In this document: positions 25,956-45,709 of the stretch, piece by piece
Layout: each line of letters begins with the position of its first letter
Numbering within the stretch: the stretch's first letter is position 1
Assembly (NCBI RefSeq): GCF_020217465.1
Contig: NZ_CP084115.1
Location: 4,092,001-4,156,000 of the forward strand
Direction: 5' to 3'
DNA from: Cobetia amphilecti
GTDB taxonomy: Bacteria > Pseudomonadota > Gammaproteobacteria > Pseudomonadales > Halomonadaceae
Length of the DNA stretch: 64,000 nt
Notes under the pieces: model-generated
The model's input: the letters and a program-made list of their open reading frames with translations, nothing else
What the model was told of the DNA's origin: nothing
Databases searched by the model: none
Program-made: the position numbers and the translations under genes

Positions 25956-27500
<1,545 letters not shown>

Positions 27501-30640: not shown

Positions 30641-31588
30641 CTAGTGGATATGGCCGAGAATGCCGTCCAGCTCATCCAGACTGGTGTAGGAGATGGTGAC
30701 CTTGCCCTTGCCGCTCTTGCCGTGACGGATATTGACGGCAGCGCCCAGTTGCTCCGAGAGGCGCGTTTCCAGACGCTGGATGTCGGCGTCCGGTCGCGCC
30801 GGTGCCGACTTGGGCTGCTCACCCTTCTGCACGCTTTTCACCAGCGCTTCGGTCTGGCGCACGGTCAGCTCGCGCTCGACGACTTCATGGGCCAGCTTGC
30901 GCTGACGTGCCGGAGTCAGGCCGATCAGGGCACGCGCGTGCCCCATGTCGAGCTCACCGCGCTCCAGCAGGGTCTGCACTTCCTGTTCCAGCGTCAGCAG
31001 CCGCAGCAGGTTGGTGACCTGGGCGCGTGAACGCCCGACCGCGTCGCCCACCTGCTGCTGGGTCAGCTCGAATTCCTCGAGCAGGCGCTTGAGCGCCAGG
31101 GCTTCCTCGACCGGATTGAGGTTCTCGCGCTGGATATTCTCGATCAATGCCAGCGCGAGCGCGATCTCATCGCTGATGCCTTCGCGGACGACGGCGGGGA
31201 TGGTATCCAGCTCCGCCAGCTGCGAGGCACGCCAGCGGCGCTCGCCGGCGATGATCTCGTAGCGCCCCTCCCCCACCGGACGCACCACGATGGGCTGCAT
31301 CACGCCCTGAGCCCGGATGGAATCCGCCAGCTCCTCGAGCGCTTCCGGCTGAATGTCACGCCGTGGCTGATACTTGCCACGCTGCAGCTGCCCGAGCGGC
31401 AAGCGCTCGAGGCGCTCGCTGGGCAATTCCGCCGTGGCAGCGGCCGGATTCGCGGCCAGCGCGGCATCCGGTGACGCATCGATGGCGTCGCCATCGACAG
31501 CTTCTATATCGGCTTCGACATGGCGGCGGCGGTTTCCGGCGCCAATCAGGGCATCCAGGCCCCTTCCCAGGGCACGCTTACGCGTCAT
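30641..31588 (-). CDS. parB: Chromosome-partitioning protein ParB
   Basis: ParB binds parS sites near the origin and, with ParA, separates the replicated origins. The 315-residue protein opens with the ParA-stimulating segment RKRALGRGLDALIG (about 3-16). The CTPase/ParB domain contains GKYQPRRDI and the motif GERRWRASQLAEL (about 115-127), followed by the helix-turn-helix TQQQVGDAVGRSRAQVTNLLR (from about 174). The C-terminal dimerisation domain includes VTISYTSLDEL. It follows parA by 18 bases. I found no complete parS site in the window. Confidence 0.96.
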   Translation of the reverse strand: MTRKRALGRGLDALIGAGNRRRHVEADIEAVDGDAIDASPDAALAANPAAATAELPSERLERLPLGQLQRGKYQPRRDIQPEALEELADSIRAQGVMQPIVVRPVGEGRYEIIAGERRWRASQLAELDTIPAVVREGISDEIALALALIENIQRENLNPVEEALALKRLLEEFELTQQQVGDAVGRSRAQVTNLLRLLTLEQEVQTLLERGELDMGHARALIGLTPARQRKLAHEVVERELTVRQTEALVKSVQKGEQPKSAPARPDADIQRLETRLSEQLGAAVNIRHGKSGKGKVTISYTSLDELDGILGHIH

Positions 31589-31606: not shown

Positions 31607-32374
31607 TTACAGCGAGAGACGACGAATCAATTCCTTGGCGAGCACCCGATAGGCCTGGCTGCCACGCGACAGACGCGCATACTTGGTCACCGGCAGGCCG
31701 TGGCTCGGCGCTTCCGCCACCCGCACGTTGCGCGGAATGGTCGCCTTGATCAGGGTATCGCCAAAGTAATCGGAAAGTTGCTTGCTGACATCGCGGGTCA
31801 GACTGTTGCGAGCGTCGTACATGGTACGCACGATCCCGAACACGTCGAGGGCCGGATTCACGTTGCCTTGAATCTGCTCGACGGTATCGAGCAGCGCTGA
31901 CAGACCTTCCAGTGCATAGAACTCGCACTGCAGCGGAATCAGCACGCCATGGGCGGCGGTCAGGGCATTGACGGTCAACATGTTGAGCGAGGGTGGGCAG
32001 TCGATCAGTACCACGTCGTATTCCGCGGCGATCGGCGCCAGAGCTTCCGTGAGGCGGCGCTCACGCCCCTCGACACCGAGAAGATCGACCTCGGCGGCGG
32101 TAAGGTCGCCATTGCCGGGCAACAGGGCGTAGCCGGCATCGGGACAATCGAGAATCACGTCACTGGCACGCAGTTCGCCCAGCAGCACATCCAGCACGCT
32201 GCCTTCGAGGTCGTGCTTGTCGATGCCGCTGCCCATGGTGGCATGGCCCTGCGGGTCGAGATCGATCAGCAGAACGCGGCGATCGAGTGCCGCCAGCGAC
32301 GCCGCCAGATTGACGGCAGTGGTGGTCTTGCCGACGCCACCCTTCTGGTTGGTCAGCGCGATGATCTTGGTCAC
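31607..32374 (-). CDS. parA: Chromosome-partitioning ATPase ParA
   Basis: ParA is a Walker-type ATPase that moves ParB-parS complexes along the nucleoid. The GTG at 32374 has AGGAAG 8 bases ahead and gives 255 residues, typical of chromosomal ParA without an extra DNA-binding domain; an upstream ATG at 32431 would fall in the palindrome. The deviant Walker A KGGVGKTT lies at about 11-18, and DPQGHATMGSG, LIDCPPSLNMLTVNAL and RTMYDARNSL are typical of the family. Confidence 0.95.
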   Translation of the reverse strand: MTKIIALTNQKGGVGKTTTAVNLAASLAALDRRVLLIDLDPQGHATMGSGIDKHDLEGSVLDVLLGELRASDVILDCPDAGYALLPGNGDLTAAEVDLLGVEGRERRLTEALAPIAAEYDVVLIDCPPSLNMLTVNALTAAHGVLIPLQCEFYALEGLSALLDTVEQIQGNVNPALDVFGIVRTMYDARNSLTRDVSKQLSDYFGDTLIKATIPRNVRVAEAPSHGLPVTKYARLSRGSQAYRVLAKELIRRLSL

Positions 32375-32427
32375 GAGCGACTTCCTTGGTTCCTTGAGAA
32401 GCGGGGCCATTGGCACCAGCCACATGC

Positions 32428-32460
32428 TCACGAGGACAGATCAATGATCTGCCCTCGTGA
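32428..32460. promoter_or_regulatory. 33-bp imperfect palindrome upstream of parA
   Basis: TCACGAGG-AC-AGATC-aat-GATCT-GC-CCTCGTGA has 13 paired positions around a 3-base centre. It lies 54 bases upstream of the parA start codon, between rsmG and parA, and has no T run on the minus-strand exit side. An operator or a weak attenuator are the two readings I consider. Confidence 0.55.
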
Positions 32461-32523: not shown

Positions 32524-33174
32524 TCAGTCGCGCTTGAGGCGCAGAAGGTGACGCTCCCCTTCCTCGCCCGGCACTTCCAGCACCAATGTCTCGACCAGCG
32601 AGACACCCATCGGCAGGCGGGCAATCTCATCACTGGGGATGCGCCCTTTCATGGCCAGCCATTCGCCGCCCTCGGCGAGCACGGCCGCCGACAGATTGAC
32701 GAAGGCATCGGTATCGGCGAAGGCACGCGAGATGATCTGCTCGAACGGCGCGCCATCATAGGCTTCGATACGGACCTGGGTCGGGCTCAGATTCTTGAGG
32801 CCCAGTTCATGGCCGGCCTGAATCTGGAAGCGCACCTTCTTGCCATTCGAATCCAGCGGCACGACGGCGATGTCGGGACGCATGATCGCGATCACGATGC
32901 TGGGCAGGCCCGGGCCAGCGCCGACATCCAGAAGGCGTGGCCCACTGATATAAGGCAGCACACTGAGGCTATCGAGCAGATGGCGAGTCACCATCGCCTC
33001 CGGCTCACGTACCGCGGTGAGGTTATAGGCGCGATTCCACTTGTGCAACAGCACCAGCAACGTCATCAGCTGGGCGTGCTGTTCCTCGCTCAGCGCCACT
33101 CCCATGGCGCTGGCACCACGACTGAGCAGCTGAGCGCAACGTTCACGCTGTGTCTCGTTGAGCGTCTGGCTCAT
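32524..33174 (-). CDS. rsmG: 16S rRNA (guanine527-N7)-methyltransferase RsmG
   Basis: RsmG methylates G527 in 16S rRNA using S-adenosylmethionine. The 216-residue protein (E. coli 207) has [32 protein letters not shown] and the SAM-binding [17 protein letters not shown] (about 81-97), then [12 protein letters not shown]. Its ATG overlaps the mnmG stop as ATGA. A near-identical 12-base sequence flanks its stop codon (32508-32519 and 32531-32542). Confidence 0.96.
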
Positions 33175-35093
33175 TGCGCGACTCCCGTGTCAGTCGTTGC
33201 GGCATCTGCGGGTGTCTCCGCCTTGATCAGCTGACGCTTCTTCAAGTGAATCAACAGGATAGAGACAGCTGCCGGCGTGACACCGGAAATGCGACCGGCC
33301 TGGGCCAGCGTCGCCGGGCGCGCTTCGTTGAGCTTCTGCTTGATCTCGTTGGAGAGACCATCGACGGAATCATAGTCGAGGCTGGTCGGCAGTTCGGTGT
33401 GCTCGTGACGACGCAGGCGGTCGATCTCTTCCTGCTGACGCTGGATATAGCCTGCGTACTTGGCAGTGATCTGTACCTGTTCGGCGATGCGCCAGTCGTC
33501 GACCCCTTCCCCTTTCAGACCTGCCACATCCGGATACTCGAGCTCCGGACGCTTGAGCAGCTCCATCAGGCTGGCTTCGCGCTTGAGCGGCGAGCTGAGC
33601 TTGTCGCTCAATGGGGCCAGCTCCGGGCTCTTCGGCGTCAGCCAGGTGCTCTCGAGACGCGCGGTCTCGCGGGCGATGGCTTCACGCTTGCGATCGAAGG
33701 CTTCCCAGCGGGCGTCATCGATCAGGCCCAGCTCGCGACCCTTGGCGGTCAGACGCAGATCGGCATTGTCCTCACGCAGCAGCAGGCGATATTCGGCACG
33801 CGAGGTGAACATGCGGTACGGCTCGCGCGTGCCTAGGGTGATCAGGTCATCGACCATCACACCGGTGTAGGCCTCGTCACGCAGCGGATGCCAGGACTCG
33901 TCGTCAGTGGCGCGCAAGGCGGCATTGACGCCCGCCAGCAGCCCCTGGGCACCGGCTTCTTCATAGCCGGTGGTGCCGTTGATCTGACCGGCGAAGTACA
34001 GGTTCTTGATGAAACGCGTCTCCAAGGAGTGATGCAGGTCCTGGGGATTGAAGAAATCGTACTCGATGGCGTAGCCGGGACGCGTGATGTGCGCGTTCTC
34101 CATGCCACGGATCGAGCGCACCACCTCGAGCTGCGTATCGAAGGGCAGCGAGGTGGAGATGCCGTTGGGATACAGCTCATGGGTATTCAGGCCTTCCGGC
34201 TCGATGAAGACCTGGTGGCTGTTCTTGTCGGCGAAGCGATGCACCTTGTCCTCGATGGACGGGCAGTAACGCGGCCCGATGCCATCGATGACGCCGGAAT
34301 ACATCGGCGAGCGGTCGAGATTGGCGAAGATGATCTCGTGAGTGCGCTCGTTGGTGTGCGTGATGTAGCAGTTGACCTGCTCCGGCTGCATCTCACGGCT
34401 GCCCATGTAGGACATCACCGGACGCGGCGTGTCGCCCGGCTGGGCTTCCATCTTGCTGAAGTCGACGCTCTTGGCATCGATGCGCGGCGGGGTGCCGGTC
34501 TTGAGGCGATCGACCCGGAACGGCAGTTCACGCAGACGCGATGCCAGGCCATTGGCGGGCGGATCACCGGCACGGCCACCGGCATGGTTGTCCAGGCCGA
34601 TGTGGATCACGCCGCCGAGGAAGGTCCCGGTCGCCAGCACCACCGTGGTGGCGTGGAAGCGGATCCCGGTCTGGGTGACGACACCCCGCACGGTCTCGCC
34701 TTCGACGATCAGGTCTTCCGCACCCTGCTGGAACAGCGTCAGGTTCGGCTGGTTTTCCAGCACGTTGCGGATCGCGGCCTTGTACAGCGCCCGGTCAGCC
34801 TGTGCGCGAGTGGCACGCACTGCCGGCCCCTTGCGGGCATTCAGGGTACGGAACTGGATACCCGCCATGTCGGTGGCCAGGCCCATGGCACCGCCCAGCG
34901 CATCGATCTCCTTGACCAGATGGCTCTTGCCGATCCCGCCGATGGCGGGATTGCAGGACATCTGGCCCAGCGTCTCGATGTTATGGGTCAGCAGCAGGGT
35001 CTGACGGCCCATGCGGGCAGCAGCCAGTGCGGCTTCCGTACCGGCATGACCGCCGCCGATGACGATCACGTCAAAGCGGTTCGGGTAATCCAC
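33171..35093 (-). CDS. mnmG: tRNA uridine-5-carboxymethylaminomethyl modification enzyme MnmG
   Basis: MnmG works with MnmE to modify the wobble uridine of several tRNAs and binds FAD. I chose the GTG at 35093, which has GAGGTG 5 bases ahead and gives 640 residues (E. coli 629) starting [20 protein letters not shown]; another GTG at 35114 is less well supported. The FAD motif GGGHAG is at about 13-18. [38 protein letters not shown] and the C-terminal [23 protein letters not shown] are family hallmarks. It borders the oriC-like region. Confidence 0.97.
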
Positions 35094-35312
35094 GTTGGCA
35101 CCTCGGGGTATCACGAAACTTGGGTGAAGCGCTGTTCGCTGGTTGGCGAAGCAGGCAAATCGGCCAGGCAGGGCGATGAATCGATGCCTGGATGAATCAA
35201 GGACTGCCAGACGGCATGGCGAATGATGTCCGTCGCCGAAGGCATGTGCTCGACCGGTGAGGGAGCTTGCAAGCCAGCAGGATGACGTCCGGGCCGCACA
35301 GTATAAACCGCC

Positions 35313-36145
35313 TGTGGGTAAGCGTCAGGAGTTTTCCACAGCGCCTTGCCCTGGCAGGCCATGAGCGAATGCCCGGGTTGTTTCTTCTGGGGCATCAATC
35401 CACGCCGCGGCGATTCACGAGTCTTGCGGATACGACGCGTCGATTTTCCGGCGAGGGATGCGCTACCCAGACAGCCGTTCGTTATCCCGAACACTTCGGA
35501 TTCGGCGAGTTCACGTCAGGTCGATCGTGAGGTCTCGGTCCGTCCTTCGGGTTTCCGGATAACAAGATTATATAAAGAAAAGAAAAAGGGGTTCTGTTGA
35601 TGTTGTAACTACTGTTGTGGACAAAATCAGTGGGAAATCGAATTTATCCGTTACAAATCAAAAGCTTACGATGTTGATATAGTTGGGGAGAAAATGCGGA
35701 GTACCTGAGGACGCCACCGGTCGCTTCCTGTGGATGAAATGCGGCCTTGTCCACAGCCCCGATTATCCCCTGATTCATACCGAGCTGGTACCCGACTTTT
35801 CTGCCCTGCTGTGCACAAGTGGCGTTGTTACCCACAACCCCTAGTGCTGCATGGTCTGACGGCAAGAAGGCCGCGGATAATGCCGGAAAATGTCCACAGA
35901 GGCAAATGTCGATTTCCTGCGCTGCCCAAGGCTGTAGACAGTCATGGGATAAGTGGTGCGTGAATGGCTACAGCCCTCGCCAATGGTGCCAATGACGTTA
36001 CACGCCCCAGCCTGTGGATACTTTTTCGCTTGTTTTGCCCGTGTCGGCCGCTGAGACTGCCTGAACGCTGTCCCAGCGGCTCACGGTGCACGTTATCCTC
36101 GTGTGGTTTTCCGGCTAGGCCCCTGATTTATCCCTGTTTTTCACA
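35313..36145. other. oriC: Candidate replication origin (oriC-like DnaA-box cluster)
   Basis: This lies within the gene-free stretch 35094-36470. DnaA-box-like 9-mers: TTACCCACA (minus, 35313-35321), TTTTCCACA (plus, 35332-35340), TTGTCCACA (minus, 35616-35624), TCATCCACA (minus, 35729-35737), TTGTCCACA (plus, 35747-35755), TTGTGCACA (minus, 35810-35818), TTACCCACA (plus, 35828-35836), ATGTCCACA (plus, 35890-35898), GTATCCACA (minus, 36013-36021) and TTTTTCACA (plus, 36137-36145). An AT-rich stretch lies among them. Position beside mnmG matches oriC in E. coli, though mioC is absent and only one GATC is evident, so SeqA/Dam control of the enteric type is unlikely. Confidence 0.78.
35563..35590. 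other. AT-rich stretch, possible DNA unwinding element
   Basis: GATTATATAAAGAAAAGAAA is the core of an A/T-dominated purine stretch beside the DnaA box at 35616-35624, in otherwise GC-rich DNA. The base composition and place fit an origin unwinding element. Confidence 0.6.
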
Positions 36146-36470
36146 CGCTAAAGCGACGCCTCAGCGAGGACTGCCAGGCGGGGAAAGCGTCATTCCTTCG
36201 AGCGCCAAGGCGTGTTTGCGTGACCTGGCAAGGGGATGGCCGGGGCCAAAAAAATTCGTTTTTTTCTTCTCGAAATGCCGACAGATGGCGCGGGGAGAGA
36301 AGATTTTTCATCGTTTGGCGATCCGCAGGGCTCGCGAGGGCCTCTGAGGACAAAAAAAATGCCCCGACCTGACGGTCGGGGCATGCCCGCTGCACGCATG
36401 GCAGCGGGTAGGGTCTTCACGTGCTCAACGCTTGTCTGACCAGTGGCTCAGCGAGCCTTGTGGAAGGCGC
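36146..36470. other. Intergenic region between the oriC-like cluster and the ABC ATPase gene
   Basis: It contains a self-complementary AAAAAAATTCGTTTTTTT at 36248-36265 (7 A/T pairs around TTCG) and the terminator at 36352-36384. I see no gene. Confidence 0.55.
36352..36384 (-). terminator. Terminator of the amino acid ABC transporter operon
   Basis: On the minus strand ATGCCCCGACC-gtca-GGTCGGGGCAT is followed by a run of T (A run 36352-36359 on the plus strand). Confidence 0.93.
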
Positions 36471-37217
36471 TCAGTGGGACAGTACGCGGGCCAGGAAGCT
36501 CTGGGTACGTGGATGTTGCGGCGTATCGAAGACCTGCTCTGGCGTGCCTTCCTCGACGATGCTGCCCTGATGGATGAACACCACCCGGTCTGCCACTTCA
36601 CGGGCAAAACTCATTTCATGGGTGACGATCATCATCGTCATGCCTTCGCGGGCCAGCTTGCGCATGACATCGAGTACCTCGCCGATCATTTCCGGGTCCA
36701 GTGCCGAGGTGGGCTCATCGAACAGCATCAGGCGCGGTTCCATCGCCAATGAGCGGGCAATGGCCACGCGTTGCTGCTGGCCGCCGGAGAGTTGCCCCGG
36801 GTACTTGTCGGCCTGCTCGAGAATATTGACCCGCTCGAGCAGCGTATCGGCTTGCTGCTCGGCCGCCGGTCGTGAGGTGCCGCGCACCTTGATGGGGGCC
36901 AGGCTGACGTTGTCACGCACGCTCATGTGCGGGAAGAGGTTGAACTGCTGGAAGACCATGCCGACTTCGGTGCGTATCGCCTTGAGCGCCCTGTGGCTCT
37001 TGCCGTGGGGGATCAGCGAATGCCCATCCACCTCGATGTTGCCGTCCTGAAACTCTTCCAGGCCGTTCACGCAGCGAATCAGTGTCGACTTGCCGGAGCC
37101 ACTGGCCCCGATGATCACCACCACCTCCCCCTGGGCGACCTCGAGCTCGATGTCCTTGAGGACATGCAGGCTGCCGAAATGCTTGTTGAGCTTGTGCATC
37201 TTCACGATGGCAGTCAT
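36471..37217 (-). CDS. Polar amino acid ABC transporter, ATP-binding protein (GlnQ family)
   Basis: This is the ATPase of an inner-membrane amino acid importer. The 248-residue protein shows Walker A GASGSGKS (about 37-44), the Q-loop [13 protein letters not shown], signature [16 protein letters not shown], Walker [16 protein letters not shown] and switch [15 protein letters not shown], a pattern specific to the PAAT (GlnQ/HisP) family. It is the last gene of a three-gene operon with a permease and a binding protein. Confidence 0.93.
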
Positions 37218-44166: not shown

Positions 44167-44262
44167 CGCTATTGCCCCTTTCGATGCCGGCACCCCTTGC
44201 GCTCGCGCGGCTGCAACTCACCCGTGAGTCGCGTTAAGCTGTCGCCATCGATGGCATTCGGG

Positions 44263-44341
44263 TTATCCACACCCCCTTGCCGCCCCGAGGCTATCGGGCC
44301 GTTTCATCGCCTGTGGACAAGCTGCATTCACGTTATCCACA
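44263..44341. promoter_or_regulatory. Three DnaA boxes upstream of hemL
   Basis: Perfect TTATCCACA at 44263-44271 and 44333-44341 (plus), and TTGTCCACA at 44312-44320 (minus), fall within 79 bases of the 250-base gap before hemL. Boxes two and three are 21 bases apart, about two helical turns. Confidence 0.75.
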
Positions 44342-44416
44342 GCGTCTTTGTGTCTGATCCCCCTTTTCTCCATTTTCGCGGCCGATGGCCGCTCGCCGCT
44401 TATCAAGAGGTATGTC

Positions 44417-45709
44417 ATGACCACGTCCGCTGCCCAGTTCGAACGCGCCAGCCGTCATATTCCAGGTGGCGTCAATTCGCCGGTCCGCGCCTTCAAGGGG
44501 CTGCATCGTCCGCCGGTGTTCATCGACCATGCCAAGGGCGCGTATCTGTTCGATGTGGAGAACACGCGCTATATCGATTACGTCGGTTCCTGGGGGCCGA
44601 TGATCACCGGCCACGCCGATGAAGATGTGCTCAGCGCCGTGCGCGAGCGTCTCGAGAGTGGTCTGTCCTTCGGTGCGCCCACCGAGATCGAGTCCGAGAT
44701 GGCCGAGCTGATCTGCGAGATGCTGCCGAGCCTCGACATGGTGCGCATGACCAACTCCGGCACCGAAGCCACCATGTCGGCGATCCGCCTGGCGCGGGGT
44801 TTCACCGGCCGCGACAAGATCGTCAAGTTCGAGGGTAACTATCACGGTCACTCCGACTCGCTGCTGGTCAAGGCCGGCTCCGGCGCGCTGACCCATGGCG
44901 AGCCCAGCTCCCCGGGCGTGCCGGCCTCGCTGGCCGAGCACACCATCACGCTGGACTACAACGACGCCGAGGGCGTGCGTCGTTGCTTCGCCGAGCTGGG
45001 TGACGAGATCGCCTGTATCATCGTCGAGCCGGTCGCCGGCAACATGAACTGCATCCCGCCGGTTCCGGGCTTCCTCGAAAGCCTGCGTGAAGTGTGCGAT
45101 GCCCACGGCAGCGTGCTGATCCTCGATGAGGTGATGACGGGCTTCCGTGTCGCCCTGGGTGGCGCTCAGGCGCATTACGGCATCACGCCGGACCTGACCT
45201 GCCTGGGCAAGATCGTCGGCGGCGGCATGCCGGTGGGTGCCTTCGGCGGCAAGCGCGAGATCATGCACCACCTCTCGCCGCTGGGGCCGGTCTACCAGGC
45301 CGGGACGCTGGCAGGCAATCCGCTGGCGATGGCCGCTGGTGTCGCGCTGCTGCGCAAGCTCAAGGCGCCCGGCTTCCACGCCGAGCTTTCACGCAAGGTC
45401 GAGATGCTGTGTGAAGGCCTGGAAAGCCGTGCCAAGGCGGCAGGCATCCGTCTGATTACCCAGCATGCCGGTGGCATGTTCGGTGTCTTCTTCACCGATG
45501 ACGCAGAGGTCAGCAATTTCGCCTCCGCCACGCGCTGCCGTCAGCAGGATTTCGTGACCTTCTTCAACGCGATGCTCGCCGAAGGTGTCTATCTGGCGCC
45601 GTCCGCCTATGAAGCCGGCTTCATGTCCGCGGCGCATACCGATGCTGATATCCAGGCCACGCTGGATGCGGCCGAGCGGGTCTTTGCGCAGATGTCCGCA
45701 TCGAACTGA
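44417..45709 (+). CDS. hemL: Glutamate-1-semialdehyde 2,1-aminomutase HemL
   Basis: HemL converts glutamate-1-semialdehyde to 5-aminolevulinate with PLP, feeding heme synthesis. The ATG at 44417 follows AAGAGG and gives 430 residues (E. coli 426). Class-III aminotransferase features include the N-terminal [58 protein letters not shown] and the PLP-binding lysine in [17 protein letters not shown] (about 262-278). Three DnaA boxes lie upstream, making DnaA control a possibility. Confidence 0.96.

Follow-up and report, generated by a model that had tools for sequence, protein, structure and literature searches.

Pseudomonas initiates chromosome replication at rpmH-dnaA, and a GATC cluster with SeqA control is a layer of enteric and related bacteria. 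For P. aeruginosa, two putative origins were reportedly described by Yee and Smith in 1990, Smith et al. in 1991 and Jiang et al. in 2006. In its passages on that species, Gao 2015 (PMC4403523) reports two autonomously replicating elements, and in those on the Halomonadaceae, gammaBOriS gives GAAGTTCTGT as the oriC motif of the family (PMC7174414). The matches listed in the open-access literature, a scope outside which subscription papers mostly fall, included none that deals with a Cobetia origin or with an origin switch in Halomonadaceae.

We analyzed a stretch of 64,000 nucleotides (the window, bases 4,092,001-4,156,000) from the chromosome of a Cobetia-like bacterium. The chromosome is a single closed contig of 4,160,095 bp (4.16 Mb) whose numbering starts at dnaA, and positions below are those of the window unless prefixed otherwise. 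The initial annotation had proposed a probable chromosomal origin in the 833 bases 35313-36145 beside mnmG. The skew turn, the DnaA box cluster, the conservation within Cobetia and the family motif described below support this proposal, and we consider it highly likely that this Halomonadaceae bacterium starts chromosome replication at the cluster (locus A, 35313-36021), which would be an origin of the gidA-linked kind, as in E. coli. Locus A lies upstream of mnmG-rsmG, the position expected of a gidA-linked origin, and dnaA is 33 kb away, beyond the window. The annotated neighborhood held: mnmG adjoins the region and parAB is near, with mnmG, rsmG and parB above their family cut-offs and parA represented only by ParA-family matches below the cut-off (Table 1). 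The mnmG ORF starts at 35114 and its family match begins at 35075; its product was 92% identical to MnmG of Cobetia crustatorum, the best among the 80 named matches listed. The gene on the other side, where the initial annotation saw no mioC, belongs to an amino-acid ABC transporter and has its 3' end at 36471. In agreement with the 833 bases being gene-free, an Rfam scan of 34800-36600 gave no family match, nor did an NCBIfam scan of the two 127-aa ORFs that overlap 35313-36145.

Seven nine-mers within one mismatch of TTATCCACA (hereafter boxes), and 18 within two mismatches, lie in both orientations in 35313-36145, where a first-order Markov simulation (2000 runs) gave a mean of 0.15 boxes and a maximum of 2. 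Over 448,095 bases of the same chromosome (10.8% of it), the mean was 0.13 boxes per 833 bp, and the rpmH-dnaA gap alone, with 8 boxes, was denser. The cluster claimed by the initial annotation is therefore real, as are its two copies each of TTGTCCACA and TTACCCACA, and its remark that most boxes are not of the strict form can be extended, since no strict TTATCCACA occurs in 35313-36145 at all (genome total, 25). The A/T stretch annotated at 35563-35590 was found at almost the same position (Table 1); the richest 60 nt near it are 72% AT, a level reached by 0.02% of the 60-mers of the window. The absence of a GATC cluster was likewise borne out: the 833 bp contain a single GATC, whereas the window averages 6.4 per kb.

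Table 1. Features at and around locus A (positions in the window).
Feature	Position	Strand	Evidence or remark
parB	30641..31588	-	TIGR00180, 193.3 bits
parA-type ATPase	31607..32431	-	ParA-family matches, best NF041546 with 117.5 bits, under the cut-off of 180
rsmG (gidB)	32524..33174	-	TIGR00138, 147.2 bits
mnmG (gidA)	33171..35114	-	TIGR00136, 911.6 bits; borders locus A, transcribed away from the origin
Candidate oriC, locus A (first to last box with at most 1 mismatch)	35313..36021		7 boxes against 0.15 expected; skew turn near; conserved in Cobetia
DnaA-box-like TTACCCACA, outer pair, on the far side of the AT stretch	35313..35321	-	invariant in 5 Cobetia
DnaA-box-like TTTTCCACA, outer pair	35332..35340	+	invariant in 5 Cobetia
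AT-rich stretch, probable DNA unwinding element	35564..35587		composition and conservation; within the near-invariant block 35555-35641 (5 Cobetia)
GGGGTTCTGT, Cobetia variant of the published Halomonadaceae oriC motif GAAGTTCTGT	35588..35597	+	41 nt from the R1 position
DnaA-trio-like repeat CAG TAG TTA CAA CAT CAA	35596..35615	-	reads away from the proximal box; middle A in 5 of 6 triplets
Proximal DnaA box TTGTCCACA	35616..35624	-	invariant in 5 Cobetia
Backbone R1 position, degenerate here: TTTCCCACT	35629..35637	-	3 mismatches
IHF-consensus site AATCAAAAGCTTA	35656..35668	+	predicted; matches WATCARNNNNTTR
R2 box TCATCCACA	35729..35737	-	100 bp from R1
R3 box TTGTCCACA	35747..35755	+	18 bp from R2
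DnaA-box-like TTACCCACA	35828..35836	+	invariant in 5 Cobetia
DnaA-box-like GTATCCACA	36013..36021	-	less conserved, 0.78 of columns

The genus sample consisted of six Cobetia genomes including the source genome, and locus A was compared in five of them. Identity to the source genome over a 222-nt core of locus A was 0.98 in G030, 0.97 in G045, 0.91 in G057 and 0.83 in G068. Invariant columns made up 61 of 63 within the boxes and 445 of 837 elsewhere, and the unwinding block 35555-35641 was nearly unchanged across the five genomes. With g3, g5 and g22 set aside, 32 of 37 family genomes had the outer pair of boxes; none of the four genomes of g3, g5 and g22 had it. The two boxes of this pair, 19 bp apart and near mnmG, may touch the mnmG promoter too.

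GC skew was computed from the sampled 10.8% of the chromosome, with a resolution of several kb. In a continuous 168 kb around dnaA, the 75 kb left of the mnmG start had a skew of -0.032, the 33 kb from mnmG to dnaA one of +0.044 and the 60 kb past dnaA one of +0.047. A raw one-break model lay 2.5 log units below the best fit when the break was set at A and 30.1 below when it was set at dnaA, a difference of 27.6. The 20-kb stretches sampled were all positive between 0.2 and 2.0 Mb (7 of 7) and all negative between 2.3 and 4.0 Mb (7 of 7). Third-codon skew without correction for gene strand was misleading, with an own-genome minimum 26.7 kb left of mnmG, because coding strands have more C than G at position 3, and we therefore fitted a strand-adjusted model. 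With this adjustment the three segments gave -0.070±0.016, +0.082±0.024 and +0.083±0.017, and the break was 3.7 log units below the best at A and 17.8 below at the dnaA side (a difference of 14.1); the genes in both third-codon analyses were heuristic ORF picks. Skew at 36-40 kb of the window was positive despite the minus-strand genes called there. The initial annotation had named a skew minimum elsewhere, for example at rpmH-dnaA, as evidence against its proposal; on the sampled sequence the skew turned near mnmG, the literal cumulative minimum being at 26371, 8.7 kb left of mnmG and 16 units under the value at 34001, and neither the raw nor the gene-strand-adjusted skew turned at dnaA. By computation, locus A is thus placed near the skew turn, carries a box cluster and is conserved.

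The one denser cluster, locus B, occupies the rpmH-dnaA gap (C1:4159260-4160040; L004:3260-4040), beyond the window, and B and A are the two densest box places in the 448,095 bases. B has one box more than A, two of its 8 boxes are strict, and its backbone (defined below) has 2 mismatches with the spacing seen at locus A; A itself has no strict box, and its R1 is degenerate in Cobetia. Box columns at B are conserved in Cobetia (48 of 54 invariant, against 158 of 442 outside the boxes), and all parS-like sites found, six in number, are on the dnaA side. These features would fit a working origin at B, as in Pseudomonas, with A left as a relic or a regulator of mnmG. We nevertheless judge this very unlikely, because the skew between mnmG and dnaA already equals that past dnaA and a break at B is worse than one at A by the raw and adjusted differences given above. 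In addition, the identity of the 222-nt core of B to the source genome, 0.96 in G030 and 0.85 in G045, falls to 0.61 in G068, 0.65 in G057 and 0.69 in G006, against the higher values at A in G068 and G057; the trio-like repeat at the source genome's own B is poor (3 of 6); and only 4 of the 9 columns of the R3 box of B are kept across the genus, a point that weakens any claim of an intact B throughout Cobetia. The presence of both clusters, with most boxes conserved in the genus, would also be consistent with firing from both, mainly from A and sometimes from B, a reading that overlaps with the main one and recalls the two autonomously replicating elements reported in the P. aeruginosa passages of PMC4403523. 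It appears very improbable to us: there is a single skew turn, near A, conservation is poor on the unwinding side of B, and control of dnaA explains the B boxes equally well. Most B boxes have thus been retained in Cobetia, perhaps for dnaA control, while the unwinding side of B drifts.

The box cluster at A could instead only control mnmG or titrate DnaA, with the true origin elsewhere in the zone of the skew turn, such as to the left of mnmG, on the side of the atp genes. The position of the cumulative minimum, the weak skew from about 8 to 34 kb of the window and the best gene-adjusted break of the source genome, 27 kb left of mnmG, point in this direction, even though a dnaA break is much worse. 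Against it, the other 833-bp places with at least 3 boxes in the 448,095 bases (50-bp steps) were only those at 44251 (4 boxes) and 15201 (3 boxes), and in 10 of 15 genomes of the A type (see below) the best gene-adjusted break fell at most 1.6 kb from the mnmG start. We regard an origin elsewhere in this zone as extremely unlikely and retain locus A as the origin.

Several further sites were observed on the chromosome. The place at 44251-45083 has two strict boxes (44263 and 44333) among its four with at most one mismatch and lies before a hemL-like ORF; it is a possible DnaA-titration or reactivation site. Other close pairs of strict boxes occur at C1:4077143/4077182 and 119404/119604. The parS-like sites (at most 2 mismatches) are at C1:3332, 3962, 15620, 50240, 50422 and 50829, about 36-83 kb from locus A, though parAB adjoins mnmG.

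Across the family, three boxes form a common backbone: R1 on the minus strand, R2 on the minus strand at 98-100 bp, and R3 on the plus strand at a further 17-18 bp, with a trio-like repeat and an AT stretch on the R1 side. Summed mismatches to this backbone were 1-6 in all 40 family A loci (G006, with 445 bp of sequence only, was excluded from this count) against 8-14 in 300 random stretches. At 21 B loci, in a search that covered fewer positions than the random control, eight scored 1-3 (the Cobetia genomes G000 and G057, and G099, G062, G004, G022, G002 and G054) and thirteen scored 5-12. The A loci of named relatives scored 6 or less in 61 of 79 cases (80 named matches listed, one dropped as too short). 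In the whole order, with 95 genomes searched, scores of 6 or less were found at 11 of 28 A loci (30 among the matches listed, two of them excluded for length) and at 8 of 24 B loci (of 30 listed; five with little or no sequence before dnaA or from the source genome, and G015, a family member, were omitted), so that the backbone is not universal. The additional elements matched moderately. The trio score averaged 5.00 at A loci against 4.05 for shuffled sequence (n=40) and 4.29 against 3.77 at B loci (n=21). The exact IHF consensus, which we take to be WATCARNNNNTTR, was present between R1 and R2 at 13 of 40 A loci and 3 of 21 B loci, in a test that is insensitive because it misses the E. coli IHF site.

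We also compared the skew of 20 genomes for which sequence around both loci was available. The gene-strand-adjusted break favored A over B by at least 3 log units in 15 of them, the source genome and 14 of 19 others; G022 favored B by 16, G090 favored B weakly (1.4), and G002, G004 and G054 were near-even. Raw skew favored A in the same 15 genomes and B in the remaining five. Of the 14 other A-type genomes, G062 had its raw minimum 35 kb left of mnmG, and the remaining 13 had theirs at 0.1-9 kb to the left. The B scores of the 15 A-type genomes were at least 8, in the random range, in nine, 5-6 in three and 2 in three (the source genome G000, G099 and G062). An MnmG tree of 29 rows united the 15 A-type genomes with G090 and two more relatives in one branch (support 98/92), in which Cobetia was the first split (support for the other members, 99/94). 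Outside this branch fell G022, the g3 pair, Oceanospirillum and Pseudomonas. In G037 (L144-L152), mnmG and dnaA are 103 kb apart and the skew break still favors mnmG. In G090 (L153-L160) they are 89 kb apart and the skew break is near dnaA, unlike in its sister G062; this genome is possibly rearranged.

The similar-looking site beside dnaA suggests that the start point of replication moved between two pre-existing sites in the family. The ancestor may have had two origin-like loci of the same spacing, at rpmH-dnaA and at mnmG; Halomonadaceae proper would have switched from the former to the latter, the dnaA-side twin would have decayed in most lineages, and Cobetia, the earliest branch of that clade in the MnmG tree, would keep both (33 kb apart in the species analyzed), the old one perhaps still able to fire. 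We put this history forward tentatively, at somewhat less than an even chance. A switch fits the data: the tree and the B scores are compatible with a single move from B to A and later decay of B, with B kept in G099, G062 and Cobetia and with G090 (B backbone score 7) as an exception at odds with the simple picture. Since the tree is that of one gene, rooted for drawing only and with a long E. coli branch, the direction of the move is one that we infer. Outside the boxes, the A and B loci of one genome showed weak likeness (z from -0.9 to 4.1 in 8 genomes), so that calling them twins rests on box order and spacing, and their resemblance may reflect convergence.

Initiation at locus A, from the assembly of DnaA through bending by IHF and trio capture to the loading of the helicase, may be pictured after models for other bacteria (PMC8287927, PMC4285127). 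The outer pair, the proximal box, R2 and R3 would be loaded with DnaA, and the segment from R1 to R2 may be bent by IHF. A DnaA filament would extend from the proximal box over the trio-like repeat and open the AT stretch; DnaB would then be loaded, perhaps via DciA, and forks would depart both ways.

This chromosome, like several others, is numbered from dnaA, and placing the origin at dnaA would introduce an error of about 33 kb here, and of about 100 kb in G037, into analyses of growth rate or replication timing. If the origin did move between similar pre-existing sites with visible decay, the rise of gidA-linked origins would be testable in close relatives.

Compared with oriC of E. coli K-12 (mnmG-mioC), the atp-rsmG-mnmG-origin order and orientation are the same, with parAB here between rsmG and the atp genes; the AT side likewise faces mnmG, and an R1-type box facing the unwinding side is followed by a plus-strand box. 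These two boxes are 118 bp apart here, 116-118 bp across the family and 106 bp in E. coli, and the Cobetia locus has an extra proximal box and the outer pair. Unlike E. coli, it has one GATC in the 833 bp and a SeqA search gave no match, so the GATC cluster with SeqA control is not seen, whereas the search that detects a DciA gene in the Cobetia genome gives none for E. coli. The Pseudomonas-type rpmH-dnaA origin is resembled by locus B of the source genome, G004, G022, G002 and G054, with a backbone of 1-3 mismatches, but the skew of the source genome does not turn there; two origin-like elements on one chromosome are shared with P. aeruginosa as reported in the passages cited above (PMC4403523). 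With the Halomonadaceae entry of gammaBOriS (PMC7174414), whose passages name neither the neighboring genes nor a twin beside dnaA, the likeness lies in GAAGTTCTGT, which occurs at 25 of 40 family A loci, in each case at a distance of 41 nt from R1, and at none of 21 B loci; it occurs 14 times in 2.1 Mb of oriented sequence, 12 of them at locus A. The 15 A loci that lack it, a point against locus A, include the five Cobetia loci, which differ from that entry in having GGGGTTCTGT (four) or GGGGTTTTGT (one) at the same spot. Because the motif is placed at A and never at B, the published computational oriC of the family appears to be locus A, an origin of a kind already known.
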